A stretch of 64,000 nucleotides of DNA, taken from contig JAKQDQ010000093.1 in the NCBI GenBank assembly GCA_029573725.1, forward strand, positions 62,001 through 126,000, read 5' to 3'. The position numbers and the translations under genes were made by a program. The notes below the pieces were generated by a model. It searched no databases and was not told where the DNA came from. It was given only the letters and a program-made list of their open reading frames with translations. The stretch comes from Verrucomicrobiota bacterium. GTDB lineage: Bacteria; Verrucomicrobiota; Verrucomicrobiia; Limisphaerales; JADLHS01. Below are positions 4,288 to 64,000 of this stretch, piece after piece. Each line of letters opens with the position of its first letter. Position 1 is the first letter of the stretch.

Positions 4288-6198
4288 TCAGGCGCCCAGC
4301 ACAAAATTCTCGAGCAAAATCACCGCAATGCCCGTCAACGCGCCCCCGGCGATCACGCCGCCGCAGATCGGTTCCTGATTTTGCACGATGATGCGGTTCG
4401 CCCGGGATCCCGGCTTTTTGAAGGTGCGCTCCGCCAGCCAGAAGAACAGGCTGCCCAGGAACATGGCCAGACAGGTGTTGAACGGGATCACCGCCGCCAG
4501 TCCCACTCCGACGCCCGACAACCAAAAGCGCCCTTTCGTGGCAAGCCGGAGACCTTCCAGGGCCAGTCCCAGCAGTCCGCCCGCCAGTGCCGCCCAGCGC
4601 GCGGACATGGCCAGATTGGAAAGGCCCTCGGTCAGCACCTCGGCGACCGCCTTCCAAATGCTCACGGCGGGCATGGGATACTGTTCTTGAATCATTTCGG
4701 ATGGACCGCCCTTGAGAAACACCCAATAGAAAACCGGCACGGACACCAGCGCGCCGGCAAAAATTCCCAGCACATGGCCGATGGCCTGCTGGCGTGGTTT
4801 CGCGCCCAGCATGTACCCGGGTTTGATGTCCATGAGCAGGTTGGCGGCGTTGCCGGCCACCTCGGCCGTGATGCCCGCCGTCATCAGGTTGGTTTTGATG
4901 TTCTTCGGGTCCAGCGCGCCAAAGGTCAACTGGGTCAGCTTGCCCATCGCCCCTGTCGGCGTGATGGAGGTCAGCGCGGTGGAATTCACGCCGATGAGCG
5001 TGAAGACGAACACGAGCGGCACGGCGATGATGCCCAGCCAGACGTTCACATCGAAAAAATAATGCGCCAGCAAGACCACAATCGTGCCGACGATGGGAAT
5101 GCCGATGACGAACACGCGCATGGGCAGTTCAATGTGGCGGAGCACGTCGTTGTCGGTTGCGCGACCTTTGCGGAACAGACCGCGAAACGCGCTGAACAGA
5201 ATTTGCGGCTTGGCAAAAAACGCCAGCAGCGACGCCGTCGTCATCATCGCCACGCCGCCCCACAGCGCCCACGCGGTGATGGCGCGAAAACCATAATGCG
5301 TGACGCCGTCCGCGCCCGTGTGCCCCACAATATCCCCGAGGGCAATGCCCCAGGGAGCGAGCAGCAGATAGTTGATGAGCGCGCCGATCAGCAGCGAAAC
5401 ACCGACCCGGATCCCCATCAAGCCGCCCGCCGCCATCATGACGAAATCCGTATCGGGTCGCACGGTCAGTTCGCGCAGTTCCACCCCGCCGATTTTGAGC
5501 GAGGTGAATTTGTAAATCCAACCGTCGAGATATTCCGGGACCAGGAGAAAACCCAGCTTGAGCTTTTCCAGAATCGCCTGGCTTTGCAGCAACTTGGCCA
5601 GCGCCGCCAATCCGCCCGCGGACAGCAACACCTTCGCCTTGAACATCCCGTCCGCCGCGTTGCCCGAATGCAGCGCGTCCATGACGATGCCCGCCGCGCG
5701 CCCCTCGGGAAAGGGATGCTGCTCGTCATTGATAAACCGCCGCTTCAAGGGAAAGGCAAACAGCACCCCGAGCACGGCGATCGCGATGATCCAGATCATC
5801 GTGGTGGCCATGGGAATGACGGTGTTCGTGACGAGCATGTACGCGCCCAGGCTCGAAATCATCGGCGCCGTCATGTACCCCGCCGCCGTGGCGATGGACT
5901 GCATACAGTTGTTTTCGAGGATGGTGTATTCCGAACCAATCTTCAGCGCCGAAAGGGCCTTAAACAACGCAAATGCGAGAATGACCGAGGTGATGCCCAC
6001 GCCGAGCGTCCAGCCGGTCTTCGCGCCCACGTAGAGATTGGTCAGCGACAAAATGCCGCCGAGACACATCCCCGTGAGCGCTGAACGGAGGGTCAGTTGC
6101 GGCATGTCTCCGCGCCAGACATGCTCAAACCACCAGCGGTCCTTTTGCTCCAGTGTCCAGGTGCGAATTTGTTCCGGGTCCAGCTGTTTGATGGCCAT
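4288..6198 (-). CDS. OPT family oligopeptide transporter
   Basis: A 636-residue polytopic membrane protein with the order of OPT family members: a short cytoplasmic N-terminus with a tryptophan-rich stretch (WTLEQKDRWWFEHVWRGDMP), a first helix with NLYVGAKTGW, FPEGRAAGIVMDAL after the early helices, and an extended C-terminal helical half. Bacterial OPT proteins are proton-coupled importers of peptides or metal complexes; the substrate is not known here. The open frame extends to 6255, but homology begins at MAIKQLDPEQ, so I use the ATG at 6198. It lies downstream of the GH84 and GNAT genes on the same strand with a 110-bp gap and may share their transcript. Confidence 0.9.
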   Translation of the reverse strand: MAIKQLDPEQIRTWTLEQKDRWWFEHVWRGDMPQLTLRSALTGMCLGGILSLTNLYVGAKTGWTLGVGITSVILAFALFKALSALKIGSEYTILENNCMQSIATAAGYMTAPMISSLGAYMLVTNTVIPMATTMIWIIAIAVLGVLFAFPLKRRFINDEQHPFPEGRAAGIVMDALHSGNAADGMFKAKVLLSAGGLAALAKLLQSQAILEKLKLGFLLVPEYLDGWIYKFTSLKIGGVELRELTVRPDTDFVMMAAGGLMGIRVGVSLLIGALINYLLLAPWGIALGDIVGHTGADGVTHYGFRAITAWALWGGVAMMTTASLLAFFAKPQILFSAFRGLFRKGRATDNDVLRHIELPMRVFVIGIPIVGTIVVLLAHYFFDVNVWLGIIAVPLVFVFTLIGVNSTALTSITPTGAMGKLTQLTFGALDPKNIKTNLMTAGITAEVAGNAANLLMDIKPGYMLGAKPRQQAIGHVLGIFAGALVSVPVFYWVFLKGGPSEMIQEQYPMPAVSIWKAVAEVLTEGLSNLAMSARWAALAGGLLGLALEGLRLATKGRFWLSGVGVGLAAVIPFNTCLAMFLGSLFFWLAERTFKKPGSRANRIIVQNQEPICGGVIAGGALTGIAVILLENFVLGA

Positions 6199-6308: not shown

Positions 6309-6929
6309 TCAGGGCAGACGGCGCGCCAGATACAGCGTGTCGCTGGTCCGCAGCAGCTCGTAGAAGCCGAGTTTCTTGTAAAATCGCTCCGCCCGCGCGT
6401 TTTCCGGCGCCATCCCCAGATGCACGCCGGGGGTCCGGCGCGCCGTGAGCGCGGACAAAAGCACCTGCATCAATTCCCGGCCCAGGCCGCGGCCCTGCGC
6501 GCGCGGCATCAGATCAATGTGTAAATGGGACGGATATTCGGCGTAGGGCTCGGGACAAACGACGTCGGGATGATAGTATTGGTGATAAAGTTTTTGCGTG
6601 GGCGTCCATGCGGCCGGGTCGCCGGTCGGTTCGGGATGTTGCCGCCGCAACGGCGCCAGCCACTCCTCCGCGAACGCCCGGTAAAATTGCCGCGAATCCA
6701 GCGCCCCCAGAACATACCCGCACACTCCTTGCGGATCCTCAAGCACAAAGGCCAGTTCCGGTTCCAGATGGATATAGGGACCGACAAAGATGTTGCCCAG
6801 GGCCCGCGGGTCATCGCGATAGAGATGAGTCCCGTCGCGGCCGCCATCCCCCGTGGTCAGACATACCTGATACGCCGCCGCCTCGTCTTCGGGACGGCAC
6901 GGGCGAATTTGAAATCCTGCGGGCAACAT
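6309..6929 (-). CDS. GNAT acetyltransferase resembling the C-terminal domain of human O-GlcNAcase
   Basis: A 206-residue GNAT-fold protein. The acetyl-CoA pyrophosphate-binding motif R-x-x-G-x-G is intact (PRAQGRGLGRELM, about residue 150), and the last strand has the usual N-x-x-AxxFYxKLGF ending. The central part, with VCGYVLGALD, then an EEW helix, an HQYYHPD segment and YPSHLHIDL, resembles the pseudo-acetyltransferase domain of animal O-GlcNAcase in both order and wording. It starts 12 bp after the stop of the GH84 gene, the other half of the animal enzyme. Unlike the animal domain, this one keeps its cofactor motif and could be catalytically active. Acceptor substrate is unknown; an aminosugar released by the GH84 enzyme is a guess. 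Confidence 0.88.
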   Translation of the reverse strand: MLPAGFQIRPCRPEDEAAAYQVCLTTGDGGRDGTHLYRDDPRALGNIFVGPYIHLEPELAFVLEDPQGVCGYVLGALDSRQFYRAFAEEWLAPLRRQHPEPTGDPAAWTPTQKLYHQYYHPDVVCPEPYAEYPSHLHIDLMPRAQGRGLGRELMQVLLSALTARRTPGVHLGMAPENARAERFYKKLGFYELLRTSDTLYLARRLP

Positions 6930-6941
6930 GACGGAAATGGT

Positions 6942-8309
6942 TTACCGGGCCCGGCCCGATTTGGAAAGTGCAGAAGTAAAATGTCCGGCGGCATCCATGA
7001 CGAGCAGCTGCTGCAGGCCGGCCACCAAGCCACCGCGATACACTCCCGGCCGATGCTCCCCGGAAACGAAACCCGCCGCCAGCTCCGGCCGCGATTCCCG
7101 CCAGCGGAGGTACGCCTGCATCAAGGTGACTTCCTCCTTGAGATCCCACACGTGCCGGTAAAGCGCGTAGCAGAGATCGCGGTCCGCCAGCTCCGTCACG
7201 CTTGTCAGCAGCGCCGCCAATTCCCGGCAGGCGCGTTGCAAGCGCGGCCAGGTCCGCCCCCAGTACTCCGGCGGCGTCCGCAGCAGGGTGGCGTAATTCC
7301 GCAACAATTGCGCGGCTTGCGGGCCATGGGCAAACGGCAGGTGAAACACGTCGGTCAACCAGTGGAGATCGCGCGCCGTCATCCGATGGCGCGTCCGGCT
7401 GGCGAAGGCCGCACGCCATGCCGCGCGCGCCGCCTGGCCGGCGTTCCGCGGATTCCACGTCCGGCGCGCTCGCGTGTAGGTGGCAAAAGTCCGAAGCGGC
7501 ACATAGTTCAGCGGGAACTCGCAATTCGGGTTGCAAAGGATGCCGCGCACCTCGGAACGCAGCTGCGTCGGACGCCCCGCATACGGCCCGAGGTAAATCC
7601 GCCGCCGGTCGTAATCGTTGGCATGCAGGTTGTCCCAGATCAACGGCGGCCGGCGGAGAACCGTTTGCAATTCGCGAATCGAGGCCGGAGGAATCGTTTC
7701 GGAAACAATTTCCGGTCCGGTCCAGAAGATGTCAATCTGTGGCGCCAACCGCGCTCCGATTTCCCGCAAGTAAGCGGATTGCGCAACGGGGCCCGCCGCC
7801 ATGCGGCCGCAATAAATCGTGGGACAAAACCACAGCCGGCTGCCGGGCACCTCCTGCTGCAACCACGCGGACAGTTCGTTGGCGACGGAACTTTGGGCCG
7901 CGGCAAAACTGCCGAACCGGCGCGTGTCTGCGGCACGCATCCGTTGCGGAATGTCATCGAACAGGATGGCAAAGGCGCGCCCCCCCAGCCGCGCGACTTG
8001 TCGCAACTTGCGTTGCAACACCGGAAACTCCGTGGCGTAATGCAGGTCCAGTCCGGGCGCGAGGGCATAGACGAAATTGAGGCCGCGCCGGCGGCAATCC
8101 GCGACCAGGCTTTTCAATCCCGCCGCTTCCGCCCGGTCGTAAGGTGCGCGCCAGATCGCGCGATGTTTGAGGTCGTCCTTGGGCGCGTACATGTAGGTGT
8201 TCAAACCCCATTGTTGCAGCCAGCGGAACAGTTGCCGACGCTGTGCATCCGTCCAGGGACGGCCGTAGAATCCCTCGATCACGCCACTGATCCAGGCTGG
8301 TGTTTTCAT
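6942..8309 (-). CDS. GH84 beta-N-acetylglucosaminidase (O-GlcNAcase-like)
   Basis: A 455-residue protein that is essentially the GH84 catalytic TIM barrel plus a helical C-terminal extension. GH84 enzymes remove beta-linked GlcNAc with a substrate-assisted mechanism using an adjacent Asp pair. Here the pair is D118-D119 in ILFDDIPQRM. Other sugar-contact motifs known from human OGA are present in order: GVIEGFYGRPW, YAPKDD, CPTIYCG, WTGP, IWDNLHANDYD and NPNCEF. There is no signal peptide, so it should be cytoplasmic, unlike secreted hexosaminidases. The following gene is a GNAT protein like the second domain of human OGA. It is divergent from a PTS EIIC gene. Natural substrate could be GlcNAc on proteins, or short chitin or cell-wall fragments; the sequence does not decide. 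Confidence 0.93.
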   Translation of the reverse strand: MKTPAWISGVIEGFYGRPWTDAQRRQLFRWLQQWGLNTYMYAPKDDLKHRAIWRAPYDRAEAAGLKSLVADCRRRGLNFVYALAPGLDLHYATEFPVLQRKLRQVARLGGRAFAILFDDIPQRMRAADTRRFGSFAAAQSSVANELSAWLQQEVPGSRLWFCPTIYCGRMAAGPVAQSAYLREIGARLAPQIDIFWTGPEIVSETIPPASIRELQTVLRRPPLIWDNLHANDYDRRRIYLGPYAGRPTQLRSEVRGILCNPNCEFPLNYVPLRTFATYTRARRTWNPRNAGQAARAAWRAAFASRTRHRMTARDLHWLTDVFHLPFAHGPQAAQLLRNYATLLRTPPEYWGRTWPRLQRACRELAALLTSVTELADRDLCYALYRHVWDLKEEVTLMQAYLRWRESRPELAAGFVSGEHRPGVYRGGLVAGLQQLLVMDAAGHFTSALSKSGRAR

Positions 8310-8493
8310 GGCTGGAAACCCGTGTTCATCGTGCCGTCCATGATGGCGGGAAGCGCCGGTTTGTCAAAGCGTCGCCCGCGCCGGGGCCGGCGCGGCTGCT
8401 AATCCGCTTGCTCCGCGCCGGGCGGATGGGTTTGACTGTGCCCATGATCAGGCTGGTGACGGGGCGGACGCGCTCCCCGCGGAAGGAGGGCGT

Positions 8494-9756
8494 TTGAAGT
8501 CGGCGACGGATTTTCTAAACAAGCACTTGGTGCCGACGTTGACGGTGTTGAGTGAAAACACCTATCTGTCCGCCATTCGCGCCGGCATGGTGTCGGTGGT
8601 GCCGCTGACCATCATCGGCGGTTTGTTCATGGTGCTGGCCGAATTTCCCGTGGCCGCCTGGACGGAGTTCATTGCGCCCTGGCACCAACTGCTCGAATAC
8701 CCGTTCAAAGCCACGTTTGGCTTGCTGGCGGTGTTTGTCAGTTTTGCCATCGGTTATGACCTGGGCGCGCGGTTCAAACTGGACCCGCTGTCCAGCGCCT
8801 CCATCGCCACCCTGGTCTTTCTGCTGCTGCAACTGCATTTGGTGCCCGGCGAAGAACCGGTCATCGCGCTCAACACCGAGGGTCTGGGCTCAAACGGGTT
8901 GTTTACGGCCATCGTGGTGGCGTTGATTTGTGTGCGGGTGCAGAAATTCTTCACCGACCGCAACCTGGTGATCAAGCTCCCCGCCAGTGTGCCGGCGGTG
9001 GTCTATGAATCCTTTCTTTCCTTGATTCCGATGTGCGTGTTGGTGCTGGTGTTCTGGGGAATCCGGTTCGGCCTGGGCGTGGACATCAATCACCAGGTGC
9101 AACTGCTGTTCAAACCGCTGGTGTTCGCGTTGAACACGCTGCCCGGCATCCTGGTGTACGCCTTTTGTGTGACGTTGCTGTGGTCGGTGGGCATCAACGG
9201 CGACAATGCGATGGACGCCGTCGTGGCGCCGGTCTTTCTGGCGGGCTTGATGGCCAATGCCGAGGCCATGAACGCCGGACAGCCGTTGACCAACATTACC
9301 GCGCTCGGCTTCTTCACCACCTTCGTGAATGTCGGCGGCACCGGGGCAACCATTGCGCTGGCGCTGGTGATGATCAACTCCAAGGAGCCGGGCTTCCGCA
9401 AAGTCAGCCGGCTCTCGTTGCCGACGCAGATTTTCCAGATCAACGAGCCGATCTTCTTCGGCTTTCCCATCGTGTTGAACCCGATCTTCATGATGCCGTA
9501 CATCTTGAACGCGCTGATTCTCACCGCCAGCACCTATCTGCTGATGGATTGGGGAATCATCCAGAAACCATTCGTCAACGTACCCTGGACCACCCCGCCA
9601 ATCATCGGCCATTACCTGGTCTCCGGTGGCGACTGGCGGGCCGCGGTCTGGGGCGTGATCTCCATCGTCCTCGCCATGGCGATCTACTATCCCTTCGCCA
9701 AAGTCGCTGAGCGCCAACGGCTGAAAGCGGAAGCGGAAGGCAAAGCGCACGAGTAA
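8494..9756 (+). CDS. PTS sugar transporter EIIC, lactose/cellobiose family
   Basis: The membrane permease subunit of a phosphotransferase system, 420 residues. It starts with the family's usual N-terminus (FLNKHLVPTLTVLSENTYLSAIRAGM) and carries the conserved substrate-site loop INEPIFFGFPIVLNP (about residues 315-330). The family transports beta-disaccharides such as cellobiose, lactose and chitobiose. The start is a TTG at 8494, chosen because an unusually strong Shine-Dalgarno sequence (GGAAGGAGGG) ends 3 nt before it. No EIIA, EIIB, HPr or EI gene is adjacent. Divergence from a GH84 glucosaminidase gene suggests a chitobiose-like sugar, but the EIIC alone could also work as a facilitator or use distant partners. 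Confidence 0.92.
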   Translation: MKSATDFLNKHLVPTLTVLSENTYLSAIRAGMVSVVPLTIIGGLFMVLAEFPVAAWTEFIAPWHQLLEYPFKATFGLLAVFVSFAIGYDLGARFKLDPLSSASIATLVFLLLQLHLVPGEEPVIALNTEGLGSNGLFTAIVVALICVRVQKFFTDRNLVIKLPASVPAVVYESFLSLIPMCVLVLVFWGIRFGLGVDINHQVQLLFKPLVFALNTLPGILVYAFCVTLLWSVGINGDNAMDAVVAPVFLAGLMANAEAMNAGQPLTNITALGFFTTFVNVGGTGATIALALVMINSKEPGFRKVSRLSLPTQIFQINEPIFFGFPIVLNPIFMMPYILNALILTASTYLLMDWGIIQKPFVNVPWTTPPIIGHYLVSGGDWRAAVWGVISIVLAMAIYYPFAKVAERQRLKAEAEGKAHE

Positions 9757-22360: not shown

Positions 22361-23089
22361 ATGTCATTTCAAATCCTCAATCTGGAAGCGGTGGCGGAGT
22401 ACCTGAATTTCACACCGGCGGAGGTTGAACAACGGGTCAAGGACCGGGTGATTCCTTTTGAGAAGCGCGGCGACCGGCTGATCTTCCGCAAGGGGGAAAT
22501 TGACGAGTGGGCCTCGCAGCGCATCCTGGGTTTTTCCACCGAGCGGCTGGCCGCCTACCACGAAAAATCCAGCCGGCGGGCCCGCAAAATCCTGGCGCAT
22601 GAAGCCATTTTACCCGAAATCCTCGCGGCGGGAACCATTGAACCCAGCCTGAAATCCCGGACCAAACCGGCCGTGTTGCACGACCTCGTCACCCTGGCCG
22701 ACCAGACCGGCAAGCTCAATGACCCCAAGTTGCTGCGGAGCAGCTTGGCGGCGCGGGAGGACCTCTGTTCCACCGGCATGCCGGGCGGCTTCGCCGTGCC
22801 ACATTTGCGGGTACAGGAGCCGTATCTGTTTGAGACCTCCTTTCTCGTGATGGGCCGGCTCGTCCGCCCCATTTATTTCGGCGCGCCGGATGATGAGCCG
22901 ACCGACCTGTTCTTTCTGCTTTGTTGTCAGGACGATCGGTTGCACCTGCACACCCTGGCGCGCTTGTGCATGGTCGCCGTTAAAACGGACGCCCTGGCGC
23001 AATTGCGCAATGCCCCGGACGCGTCCGTCATGCGCGACATCCTGCTCGCCGCCGAACAGGAGGTTTTGGCCGCCCAGAAATCGCCTTGA
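22361..23089 (+). CDS. HTH (excisionase/MerR-type) fused to PTS EIIA (PtsN-like) domain
   Basis: A 242-residue protein. Residues 5-57 form an excisionase/MerR-like helix-turn-helix (LEAVAEYLNFTPAEVEQRV, then the wing IPFEKRGDRLIFRKGEIDEW). A linker to about residue 80 precedes an EIIA domain of the fructose/nitrogen class. The phospho-acceptor is H148 in GGFAVPHLR, matching the IPHGK site of E. coli PtsN, and LHLHTLARL follows further on. The design suggests a regulator whose DNA binding responds to phosphorylation of the EIIA domain. No EIIB/EIIC is adjacent; the orphan EIIC gene at 8494 is 14 kb away. It has its own upstream region with a palindrome and a weak downstream terminator. Confidence 0.85.
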   Translation: MSFQILNLEAVAEYLNFTPAEVEQRVKDRVIPFEKRGDRLIFRKGEIDEWASQRILGFSTERLAAYHEKSSRRARKILAHEAILPEILAAGTIEPSLKSRTKPAVLHDLVTLADQTGKLNDPKLLRSSLAAREDLCSTGMPGGFAVPHLRVQEPYLFETSFLVMGRLVRPIYFGAPDDEPTDLFFLLCCQDDRLHLHTLARLCMVAVKTDALAQLRNAPDASVMRDILLAAEQEVLAAQKSP

Positions 23090-61681: not shown

Positions 61682-64000
61682 ATGTTCCGGCAGGACGTCT
61701 TATGCTCGGACGTGTTTCAGCACTGCTCCAATGCGCGTTCGGTCTCCTGGCTGATCTGGTGGCTGGCCGGAATGCTGGTCGTTCCGCCACTGTCCGCCTT
61801 GGAGGTTGTCCCTTTGAATGCGCCCGCGCCCTGGCAACGGCTCGAGTTCCGCATTGCCGGTGTGCCCACCGTAACCAATCCCTTCGATCCGGACCTCATC
61901 CGTGTTGAGGCCACGTTCCAGCCGCCGACCGGGCCGGCGCTGGTCGTTCCCGGCTTTTGGTATCAAGCCTGGCAACGCCATCTCACCGGCAACCGCGAGA
62001 AGTTGAGTGCCACCCAAGCGCCGGAGTGGCGTCTGCGCTTCGCGCCGCCCGCGGCCGGCAATTATTCGGTGAGCGTGACCGTGTTCACCAACCATCAACC
62101 CACCGGACTGACCGGCAGCACAAATTTCTCCGTCCCGGAGGAGGCGCCGCCGCGCAGCGGTTACGTGCGCATCGCCGCCAGCGGGCAGTATTTCGAAACG
62201 GGTGACGGCCAGCCGTTGCGGTTGATTGGCGCCAATGTGTGCTGGCACGGCAGCCGCGGCACCTACGATTATGACGACTGGCTCCCGGCCATGCAGGCGG
62301 CCGGCGAAAATTATTTCCGGCTCTGGATGTGTCCGTGGTCGTTTGGTTTGGAAACCGCAACCAATTCGCTTAACCGGTACCGTCTTGATGAGGCCTGGCG
62401 TCTGGATTACGTCCTGCAACAAGCCGAGCAGCGCGGATTCTACGTCGAGCTGTGTTTGGACTATCACGGCATGTTTGCCTCCGAGCCGGACTATTGGGGC
62501 GGCAACAACTTTTGGCCCAGTCACCCGTACCACGTCGCGCAAGGCGGACCGTGCGCGACCCCCAACGCCTTCTTCACCAACGCCGCCGCGCGTGCGCTCT
62601 ATCAAAAACGGCTGCGCTATCTCGTGGCGCGTTATGGCTACAGCCCGAGCCTGTTGTCCTGGCAATTCTTCAACGAGATTGACAATGTCTATTCCGTGCT
62701 GAACGCCCATGACGTGGCTGTGTGGCACGCCCTCATGGGCGATTGGCTGCGCGCCCATGATCCGTTCCGGCATTTGCGCACCACCAGTTTCACCACGGCC
62801 GAACCGCGCGCCGAGATGTGGTCGCTGCCGCAAATTGATTACGTATGCGTTCATGCCTACGGGCCGGGCCGGCCGGCGCGGGCGTTGCGCGACGCCACGC
62901 AGAAGTTATGGCGGCAATTCGCCAAACCCGTCCTCATAGATGAATACGGCACGAGCTGGCAGGGTTGGAATCGTGCCGCCGATCCGCACCTGCGTGGTTT
63001 TCGTCAGGGACTCTGGGGCGGCGCACTGGGTGGTTCGGCCGGCACGAGCATGTCCTGGTGGTGGGAGCACCTCCACAGCGAAAATGTCTATCCGGCCTAC
63101 ACGGCCCTGGGCCAAATCTTAAATCGCACCGGCTGGGGCCAGGGCGACTGGACCAATCTGGTGTTCAACCCGGTGTTGACCCCGCCGCCGACCGTCGGCG
63201 GGCCGTTGCCGCACGGACAACCGTTCGACGTCACCCTGCCGCTTGATCCGCGCTGGGGTGCCCTGCTGTCCGGTGAGGTCGCCGTGCCCAATCCGGGCGC
63301 CGCCAGCTATTCCGCCAGTGCGCTCAACAGTTTTGTCCACGGCACCACCCATTCCAACTTGCGGATTCCCTTTCGCCTCAGCGCCTGGTTGACCAACGAG
63401 GCGCGGCTGATCATGCATTTGAATTCGGTTTCTTGGAATTCCGCACTTGTCGTCCGCGCCAATGGCGTGCAGCTCTATCGCACCAACCTCGCCAACCTGG
63501 ATGGTGGTTACGCGGTGAATCACGAATACGATGCCGACCTGACCGTGGACCTGCCCGCCGGCCAATGCCTGATTGAAATTCTCAACGCGGGCGGAGACTG
63601 GTTTCATCTGGACTGGGTGCGGTTGGAGCGCGCGTTGCCCGCCACCTACACCAATGACTGGCAGCCCCCGTGCGAACCGATCGGACTGGCCGGCGCGCGG
63701 GAAGCGTTGTTGTACGTCGTCGCACCCGGCGCCGCCTTCCCCGGCGGCGCCACCGAACCGACCCTGCCCATGCAGTCGGGCCAGTCCATCACGCTCAGCA
63801 ACTGGCCGGCGGGCAATTATCTGGCTGAATGGTATGATCCGGCAACCGCCAATCGCCTGGGCCAGACCCGGGCCACCACCAGCAACACGGTCCTGCGGCT
63901 GCCCCTGCCCGACTTCAGCGTTGATCTGGCGGGCATTCTCCACCCACCACCGCGCCTGGCCCTGCCCGGTTATGATGCCAACACCGGTTACCACTTCGCC
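61682..64000 (+). CDS. secreted GH5-like glycosidase with DUF5060-type N-domain, truncated by window edge
   Basis: 773 codons are visible from ATG 61682 and the frame is open to the end of the window. A signal anchor (SWLIWWLAGMLVVPPLSALE) ends near residue 40. Residues 45-155 form a beta-sandwich resembling DUF5060. A TIM barrel follows: GQPLRLIGANVCWHGS, NYFRLWMCPWSFGLE, VELCLDYHGMF, with the acid/base Glu in SWQFFNEIDN (about residue 335) and the nucleophile Glu in VLIDEYGTSWQGW (about 420). Beyond 500 are beta-rich, probably carbohydrate-binding domains. It likely cleaves beta-mannan, cellulose or a similar polysaccharide. Such genes are often in polysaccharide-use loci; no partner is visible here. 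Confidence 0.85.
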   Translation, partial: MFRQDVLCSDVFQHCSNARSVSWLIWWLAGMLVVPPLSALEVVPLNAPAPWQRLEFRIAGVPTVTNPFDPDLIRVEATFQPPTGPALVVPGFWYQAWQRHLTGNREKLSATQAPEWRLRFAPPAAGNYSVSVTVFTNHQPTGLTGSTNFSVPEEAPPRSGYVRIAASGQYFETGDGQPLRLIGANVCWHGSRGTYDYDDWLPAMQAAGENYFRLWMCPWSFGLETATNSLNRYRLDEAWRLDYVLQQAEQRGFYVELCLDYHGMFASEPDYWGGNNFWPSHPYHVAQGGPCATPNAFFTNAAARALYQKRLRYLVARYGYSPSLLSWQFFNEIDNVYSVLNAHDVAVWHALMGDWLRAHDPFRHLRTTSFTTAEPRAEMWSLPQIDYVCVHAYGPGRPARALRDATQKLWRQFAKPVLIDEYGTSWQGWNRAADPHLRGFRQGLWGGALGGSAGTSMSWWWEHLHSENVYPAYTALGQILNRTGWGQGDWTNLVFNPVLTPPPTVGGPLPHGQPFDVTLPLDPRWGALLSGEVAVPNPGAASYSASALNSFVHGTTHSNLRIPFRLSAWLTNEARLIMHLNSVSWNSALVVRANGVQLYRTNLANLDGGYAVNHEYDADLTVDLPAGQCLIEILNAGGDWFHLDWVRLERALPATYTNDWQPPCEPIGLAGAREALLYVVAPGAAFPGGATEPTLPMQSGQSITLSNWPAGNYLAEWYDPATANRLGQTRATTSNTVLRLPLPDFSVDLAGILHPPPRLALPGYDANTGYHFA

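Follow-up and report, generated by a model that had tools for sequence, protein, structure and literature searches.

What does an acetyltransferase-like protein do beside a β-N-acetylglucosaminidase of the animal O-GlcNAcase (OGA) type, and could such a bacterial gene pair be the ancestral two-gene state of animal OGA? The question is raised by two adjacent genes, encoding a GH84 hydrolase and a GNAT-family protein, in a 64,000-nucleotide stretch of a Verrucomicrobiota genome (order Limisphaerales; positions 62,001 to 126,000 of contig JAKQDQ010000093.1), hereafter the window (Table 1). The spacing, strand and order of the two genes given in the original prediction agree with the sequence, and the order is that of the domains in animal OGA. 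The same prediction regarded the adjacency as a new observation, which it is not, because Rao et al. 2013 described this gene order, and the likeness to human OGA, in Oceanicola granulosus (PMC3814719). As in OgOGA and OgpAT of that species (2XSA, 3ZJ0), a stalked GH84 is followed directly by a GNAT of the acetyl-CoA-binding kind, with the same GNAT insertions, in the animal-OGA order, and the GNATs are 46% identical over the aligned fold; no permease is described there, whereas we find order-wide recurrence, a PTS EIIC permease and natural fusions.

Table 1. Features of the locus, in window positions
Feature	Position	Strand	Description and basis
OgpAT/OGA-pHAT-type GNAT acetyltransferase	6309..6929	-	206 aa, ATG start; phmmer, AF2 fold, residue conservation
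Spacer from the GH84 stop codon to the GNAT start codon	6930..6941	-	12 bp; sequence
OGA-type GH84 beta-N-acetylglucosaminidase	6942..8309	-	455 aa, ATG start; Pfam NAGidase, human OGA match
Divergent intergenic region	8310..8493	.	184 bp, between the GH84-GNAT pair and EIIC; sequence
Lactose/cellobiose-family PTS EIIC permease	8494..9756	+	TTG start after AAGGAGG; divergent from GH84

The GH84 protein matched Pfam NAGidase (PF07555) over residues 8–294 at 4.6e-81 (272.8 bits against a cut-off of 25), and its best solved matches were to human OGA (2e-118). It consists of a bare TIM barrel (residues ~6–300) and a stalk-like C-terminal part (~307–445), of which residues 307–442 match the isolated human OGA stalk chain 5uhk_B at 1e-19. 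The catalytic pair is D118-D119, as originally assigned; it aligns to the human LFDDI and is invariant across 13 relatives, together with K44, W225, N227, D232 and N260. Because the domain begins at residue 6–8, leaving no leader, and an in-frame upstream start codon is absent, the protein has no signal peptide, again as proposed, and is predicted to be cytoplasmic.

In the GNAT protein, the domain PF00583 was recognized by Pfam at 1.2e-8. A phmmer search matched it to OgpAT (3zj0, 1e-49), to SsAT of Streptomyces sviceus (4bmh, 1e-40) and to the animal domains of Trichoplax OGA (pHAT, 9e-32) and human OGA (about 1e-25); the next-best other GNAT reached only 0.004. An AF2 model, built from sequences of the window and related loci only (pLDDT 97.3), had its best fold matches in 3zj0 (Z 31.3), 4bmh (28.8) and Trichoplax pHAT 6r45 (25.6), each over 200–202 residues, and all other GNAT folds remained at Z ≤19.7 over ~150 residues (152 for the top one). 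The matches to 3zj0 (202 residues) and 6r45 (201) are full-length and cover a fold with two extra insertions. The phmmer ranking and the fold scores of the model agree in supporting the proposed likeness to the OGA pseudo-HAT, and on this basis the protein is firmly assigned to the OgpAT/animal-OGA pseudo-HAT family by sequence and predicted fold. Placement in an unrelated acetyltransferase family, named as a refutation in the original prediction, was not returned by the profile and sequence searches.

We then aligned the GNAT with OgpAT, from which the residue roles were taken (T26 threonine, H137 general base and P-loop; PMC3814719). The acetyl-CoA site is kept: T26, H137, I138, D139, Q145-GRGLG150, N177 and Y184. 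T26, H137, I138, D139, G146 and G150 are invariant among 32 family members, and N177 occurs in 31 of them, with a gap in the remaining one. H137, D139 and N177 are the equivalents of OgpAT His135, Asp137 and Asn175, and the P-loop in the form used by Rao (Q/R-x-x-G-x-G/A) reads Q145-G-R-G148-L-G150. VCGYVLGALD, FYKKLGF and RAQGRGLG, the motifs first noticed in this protein, are all found, and the intact R-x-x-G-x-G reads correctly from R143. Judged from these residues, the site for acetyl-CoA is intact. In the animal domain, the P-loop and the general base have been lost and acetyl-CoA is not bound (PMC3814719, PMC12494797); since the same region reads SLIKMDIHKKVTDPS in human OGA and SHLEARFDSSVPEK in Trichoplax, the contrast with the intact bacterial motif holds. 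Both domains apparently exist in active versions in the bacterial pair.

Recurrence of the pair in related genomes, on which the original prediction depended, was surveyed at several depths. Among 57 relatives, 25 have both GH84 and GNAT and 29 have neither (Fisher 9e-13); two have only the GNAT, one of them as a fragment, and one has only a GH84, which is larger and of a different type. Across 293 genomes of the order, OGA-type GH84 was present in 110, the GNAT in 123 and both in 108 (Fisher 1e-60, kinship uncorrected), so that GH84 was absent from 15 of the GNAT-bearing genomes. In 88 of the 110, the GNAT is the next gene after GH84 and shares its strand; in four it lies slightly further downstream, in 16 the two are on separate contigs (in some cases at the ends of contigs) and two have no GNAT. 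These results indicate that the adjacency is far beyond chance and that pairing is near-obligatory in this large bacterial order. Among the species genomes, the GNAT came next in 30 of the 36 OGA-type loci with downstream room, in one of them fused; the other six belong to Trueperaceae, Neomarinimicrobiota, Deinococcales and others. In 17 of 29 unfused pairs from species-genome loci, the two genes overlap by 4 bp of the ATGA type. Record titles of OGA-type loci include Verrucomicrobiota, Planctomycetota and Acidobacteriota, labels which may err for MAGs. A phylum-wide profile search, in which at most nine candidates were scored per genome, added six weak matches in 337 and is not a count; by this weak search, few members of the phylum outside the order have the pair.

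Several loci depart from the common arrangement. An ORF (L036:7500-8120) lies between GH84 and GNAT in one of them, and in another an OGA-type GH84 is part of a 907-aa open frame (G571:C33:75814-76692), with the GNAT on another contig. Four actinobacterial loci (L092, L093, L101 and L102) have a GH84 of another type together with a GNAT of the present family, encoded on the other strand ~1.4–2.6 kb upstream; this linkage is looser and separate.

In two loci, the pair is naturally fused. A single ORF from a genome of the same order (L009:40-2139; G024:C2) encodes GH84, a Pro/Gly-rich linker of ~30 residues and a GNAT with RAQGRGWG; the second fusion, from the Planctomycetia MAG WB4_3_0930 (L052:3495-5492), has a shorter linker and RAQGQGLG. 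The HID motif and the P-loop are intact in both, and the domain order is that of animal OGA. The fusions rest on assemblies, and a frameshift artefact yielding a clean in-frame linker is unlikely. The GH84 tree sets the two apart; because the test did not reject a single origin (p 0.124), we claim one or two fusion events, and two independent events were set aside as a firm claim.

To place animal OGA, we used a GH84 tree of 52 rows that included one animal GH84, and a GNAT tree with two animal pHATs. Human OGA fell inside a clade (100/99, 32 rows) of bacterial OGA-type GH84s, apart from the other sampled bacterial GH84s; one long-branch outgroup row (L076) also fell inside this clade. Its neighbour was L005, a paired GH84 from the same taxonomic order as the window and 50% identical (95/82). 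Moving human OGA outside every bacterial OGA-type row gave a tree 1.95 log units worse, which was not rejected (AU p 0.447), and in the GNAT tree the animal pHATs sat on long branches without a resolved place. Animal OGA (human, Trichoplax) and the bacterial pair share GH84, stalk and pHAT fold in the same order, the GH84 clade, and a GNAT fold at Z 25.6 to the Trichoplax pHAT; they differ in that the genes are separate in the window and its genome has no GT41, whereas animals have GT41. Of the proposed ancestral two-gene state, the GH84 affinity stands; given the AU result, the long pHAT branches and the few animal rows, that the bacterial pair represents this state is possible only.

We next focused on the gene divergent from the pair. 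The EIIC protein (P0004) matched Pfam PTS_EIIC at 3.9e-42 and TIGR00410 with 325 bits (cut-off 236), and its nearest solved structure is 3qnq (8e-72, full-length alignment). The intergenic region is a possible shared control region of the pair and EIIC. Of the 39 OGA-type loci, 17 have a homologue 57–73% identical, which in most comes right after the GNAT and in one lies upstream; the arrangements thus include downstream, upstream (L060, G032) and divergent (window). Among the 57 relatives, EIIC is present in 17 of the 25 with the pair versus one of the 32 others (p 1e-7, kinship uncorrected); in seven of these 17 it lies near the pair on its contig, and in ten on other contigs. EIIC therefore recurs as the third gene of the set. 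About a third of the pair-bearing relatives have no EIIC, which counts against a three-gene module, as does its location on another contig in others; among loci without it, four have sugar ABC genes and a few have SSF symporters.

A complete phosphorylating PTS of the Lac/Cel type was not found in the window's own genome: there was no match to Lac-type IIA (PF02255), and the only PF02302 match was a fructose-type IIB on another contig. Compared with the ChbC-type EIIC (3QNQ), the window EIIC keeps the glutamate of the NEP motif and aligns over its full length; the cognate IIA is absent and the only IIB is fructose-type, and the GIHG motif is GxNG (His to Asn), as in 16 of 17 linked homologues. 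We take the GIHG histidine (His250 of ChbC) to lie near the phosphorylated hydroxyl, and its replacement by Asn leads us to propose a non-phosphorylating carrier; that EIIC carries sugar without phosphorylation is a guess from sequence. That fructose-type IIB precedes an HPr-EI-IIA fusion (L147:5162-8013, contig C145), so a PTS phosphoryl chain exists in this genome, and the window has, separate from the EIIC gene, a PTS EIIA_2 of the fructose/nitrogen type with an N-terminal extension of 86 residues (22361-23086, plus strand).

Relatives of the GNAT on annotated plasmids (35–43% identity) have no adjoining GH84, and no alphaproteobacterial OGA-type GH84 was among the best matches listed in the plasmid search. 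On the Falsirhodobacter algicola plasmid NZ_CP047292.1 (L143:1711-7202), genes for a NagK-like kinase, a ROK regulator, a DMT transporter, the GNAT, nagB (TIGR00502 above cut-off) and a nagA-like protein stand in a row, and in Duffyella (L140) the GNAT is accompanied by a sugar ABC transporter, a ROK regulator and a NagK-like kinase. Standalone relatives thus sit in GlcNAc catabolic clusters in these two genera. The Agrobacterium relative (L139) has ROK and Gfo/Idh neighbours; the contexts in Mesorhizobium (L141) and Streptomyces (L138) were uninformative, the latter being a close relative of SsAT, which belongs to the same GNAT family (4BMH, Z 28.8, 1e-40), and having no adjoining GH84. Neither nagA nor nagB nor a kinase gene turned up among the pair's annotated window neighbours or the 25 commonest families of pooled neighbours, so the connection with GlcNAc catabolism is drawn from divergent relatives of the GNAT (35–40% identity).

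How might a permease, an acetyltransferase and a hydrolase act together? GH84 enzymes work by neighbouring-group participation, with the 2-acetamido group of the substrate itself as the nucleophile (PMC4263850). De-N-acetylated glucosaminides should therefore resist cleavage, and an acetyl group restored by the neighbouring acetyltransferase would license hydrolysis. In the reading we prefer, the pair and EIIC form a cytoplasmic amino-sugar scavenging module in which acetylation precedes hydrolysis; we give it a probability of about 0.45, with acceptor, cargo and order of steps as we infer them. The permease, or elsewhere a sugar ABC or SSF transporter, would import small sugars or conjugates with beta-linked GlcN/GlcNAc. 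With acetyl-CoA as donor, the GNAT would N-acetylate glucosamine or a non-reducing-end glucosaminide at its free 2-amino group, and GH84 would then release GlcNAc through the restored nucleophile. On this reading, what animal OGA carries as its pseudo-HAT would be a relative of this kind of amino-sugar acetyltransferase that has lost its activity. The frequent sugar permease beside the pair suggests that amino sugars rather than proteins are handled, and OgpAT has a deep narrow tunnel (PMC3814719), which would fit a small acceptor. A precedent by analogy is RmNag, a fungal GH3–GNAT fusion whose GNAT need not be a close relative of this family; it acetylates glucosamine, and its cleavage of (GlcN)2 depends on acetyl-CoA (PMC4680927). 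That paper also cites a glucosaminide acetyltransferase from bacteria that serves the same purpose. RmNag and Ngs1 resemble the fusions described here in having a GlcNAc hydrolase domain and then an acetyltransferase domain in one chain, and differ in that their hydrolase is an unrelated GH3 and that Ngs1 acts on histones (PMC4680927, PMC5063960). Some amino sugar as acceptor, all amino-sugar versions taken together, is our best guess and quite probable. The most specific version, in which permease, GNAT and GH84 acetylate and then hydrolyse, the animal pseudo-HAT is the remnant of a glucosamine(ide) N-acetyltransferase and not of a HAT, and the orphan EIIC is non-phosphorylating, is doubtful as a whole. 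We know of no acceptor on record for OgpAT, SsAT or any other family member, which counts against the module, as do the 15 GNAT genomes without GH84, the six OGA-type loci with downstream room and no GNAT, and the want of nag and kinase genes beside the pair.

Other readings use much of the same evidence. If the GNAT acted after hydrolysis, on free GlcN (or GlcN-6-P), adjacency would reflect shared regulation only; relatives in nag clusters without GH84 and the 15 genomes with a GNAT and no GH84 speak for such salvage, which taken alone leaves the strict order, the start–stop overlap and the fusions unexplained, although shared regulation could still yield them, and we consider it unlikely. 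An OPT oligopeptide transporter gene (4291-6195, also minus strand) follows the GNAT at a distance of ~113 bp. This gene and MurA, also downstream in the window, would suit cell-wall recycling, with GH84 in the role of NagZ on GlcNAc-muropeptide fragments and the GNAT repairing de-N-acetylated residues; de-N-acetylated peptidoglycan fragments are known to be acted on by glucosaminide acetyltransferases (cited in PMC4680927). However, neither MurA nor OPT is among the recurrent families of pooled neighbours, so both were rejected as partners, and no amidase, MurNAc kinase or etherase was seen beside the pair, making this role improbable. Amino-sugar biosynthesis, in which the GNAT would acetylate the product of a DegT/DnrJ/EryC1-type aminotransferase and GH84 would trim, draws on the aminotransferase gene adjoining the set in eight of 39 loci (for example L044:7885-9291 and L048:4822-6078); this gene is absent from the window neighbourhood and most loci, and an import-type permease is better suited to catabolism, so we hold this reading to be very improbable.

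The remaining alternative is protein O-GlcNAc cycling, with GH84 as the eraser and the GNAT as a protein acetyltransferase partner, as was reportedly once proposed for OGA. In its favour, human OGA is the closest solved GH84 and the stalk is common to both, and T. terrenum has GH84 together with GT41 (PMC4683255). GT41 (OGT), however, was not found in the window's own genome, which is 96% complete, and occurs in two of the 57 relatives and in one of the 25 with the pair. This near absence disfavours an O-GlcNAc-type role for the pair, and cycling was rejected; the permease, the nag context of relatives and the deep narrow tunnel of OgpAT, which suits small acceptors better (PMC3814719), also argue against it, and we regard it as the least probable reading of all.

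Our literature search, mainly of openly accessible papers, returned no survey of the pair in Verrucomicrobiota and no link to EIIC. As far as searched, the order-wide recurrence, the fusions with an intact site and EIIC as a third gene are new, as are the scarcity of GT41 and the GNAT relatives in GlcNAc clusters.

Taken together, these bacteria offer many intact versions of both domains for comparison with animal OGA and its dead acetyltransferase domain; two of them are natural fusions, and nearly all of the genomes lack an O-GlcNAc transferase. The permease and the nag context of relatives make amino sugars the candidate acceptor, which would provide a simple assay for the OgpAT/SsAT family.
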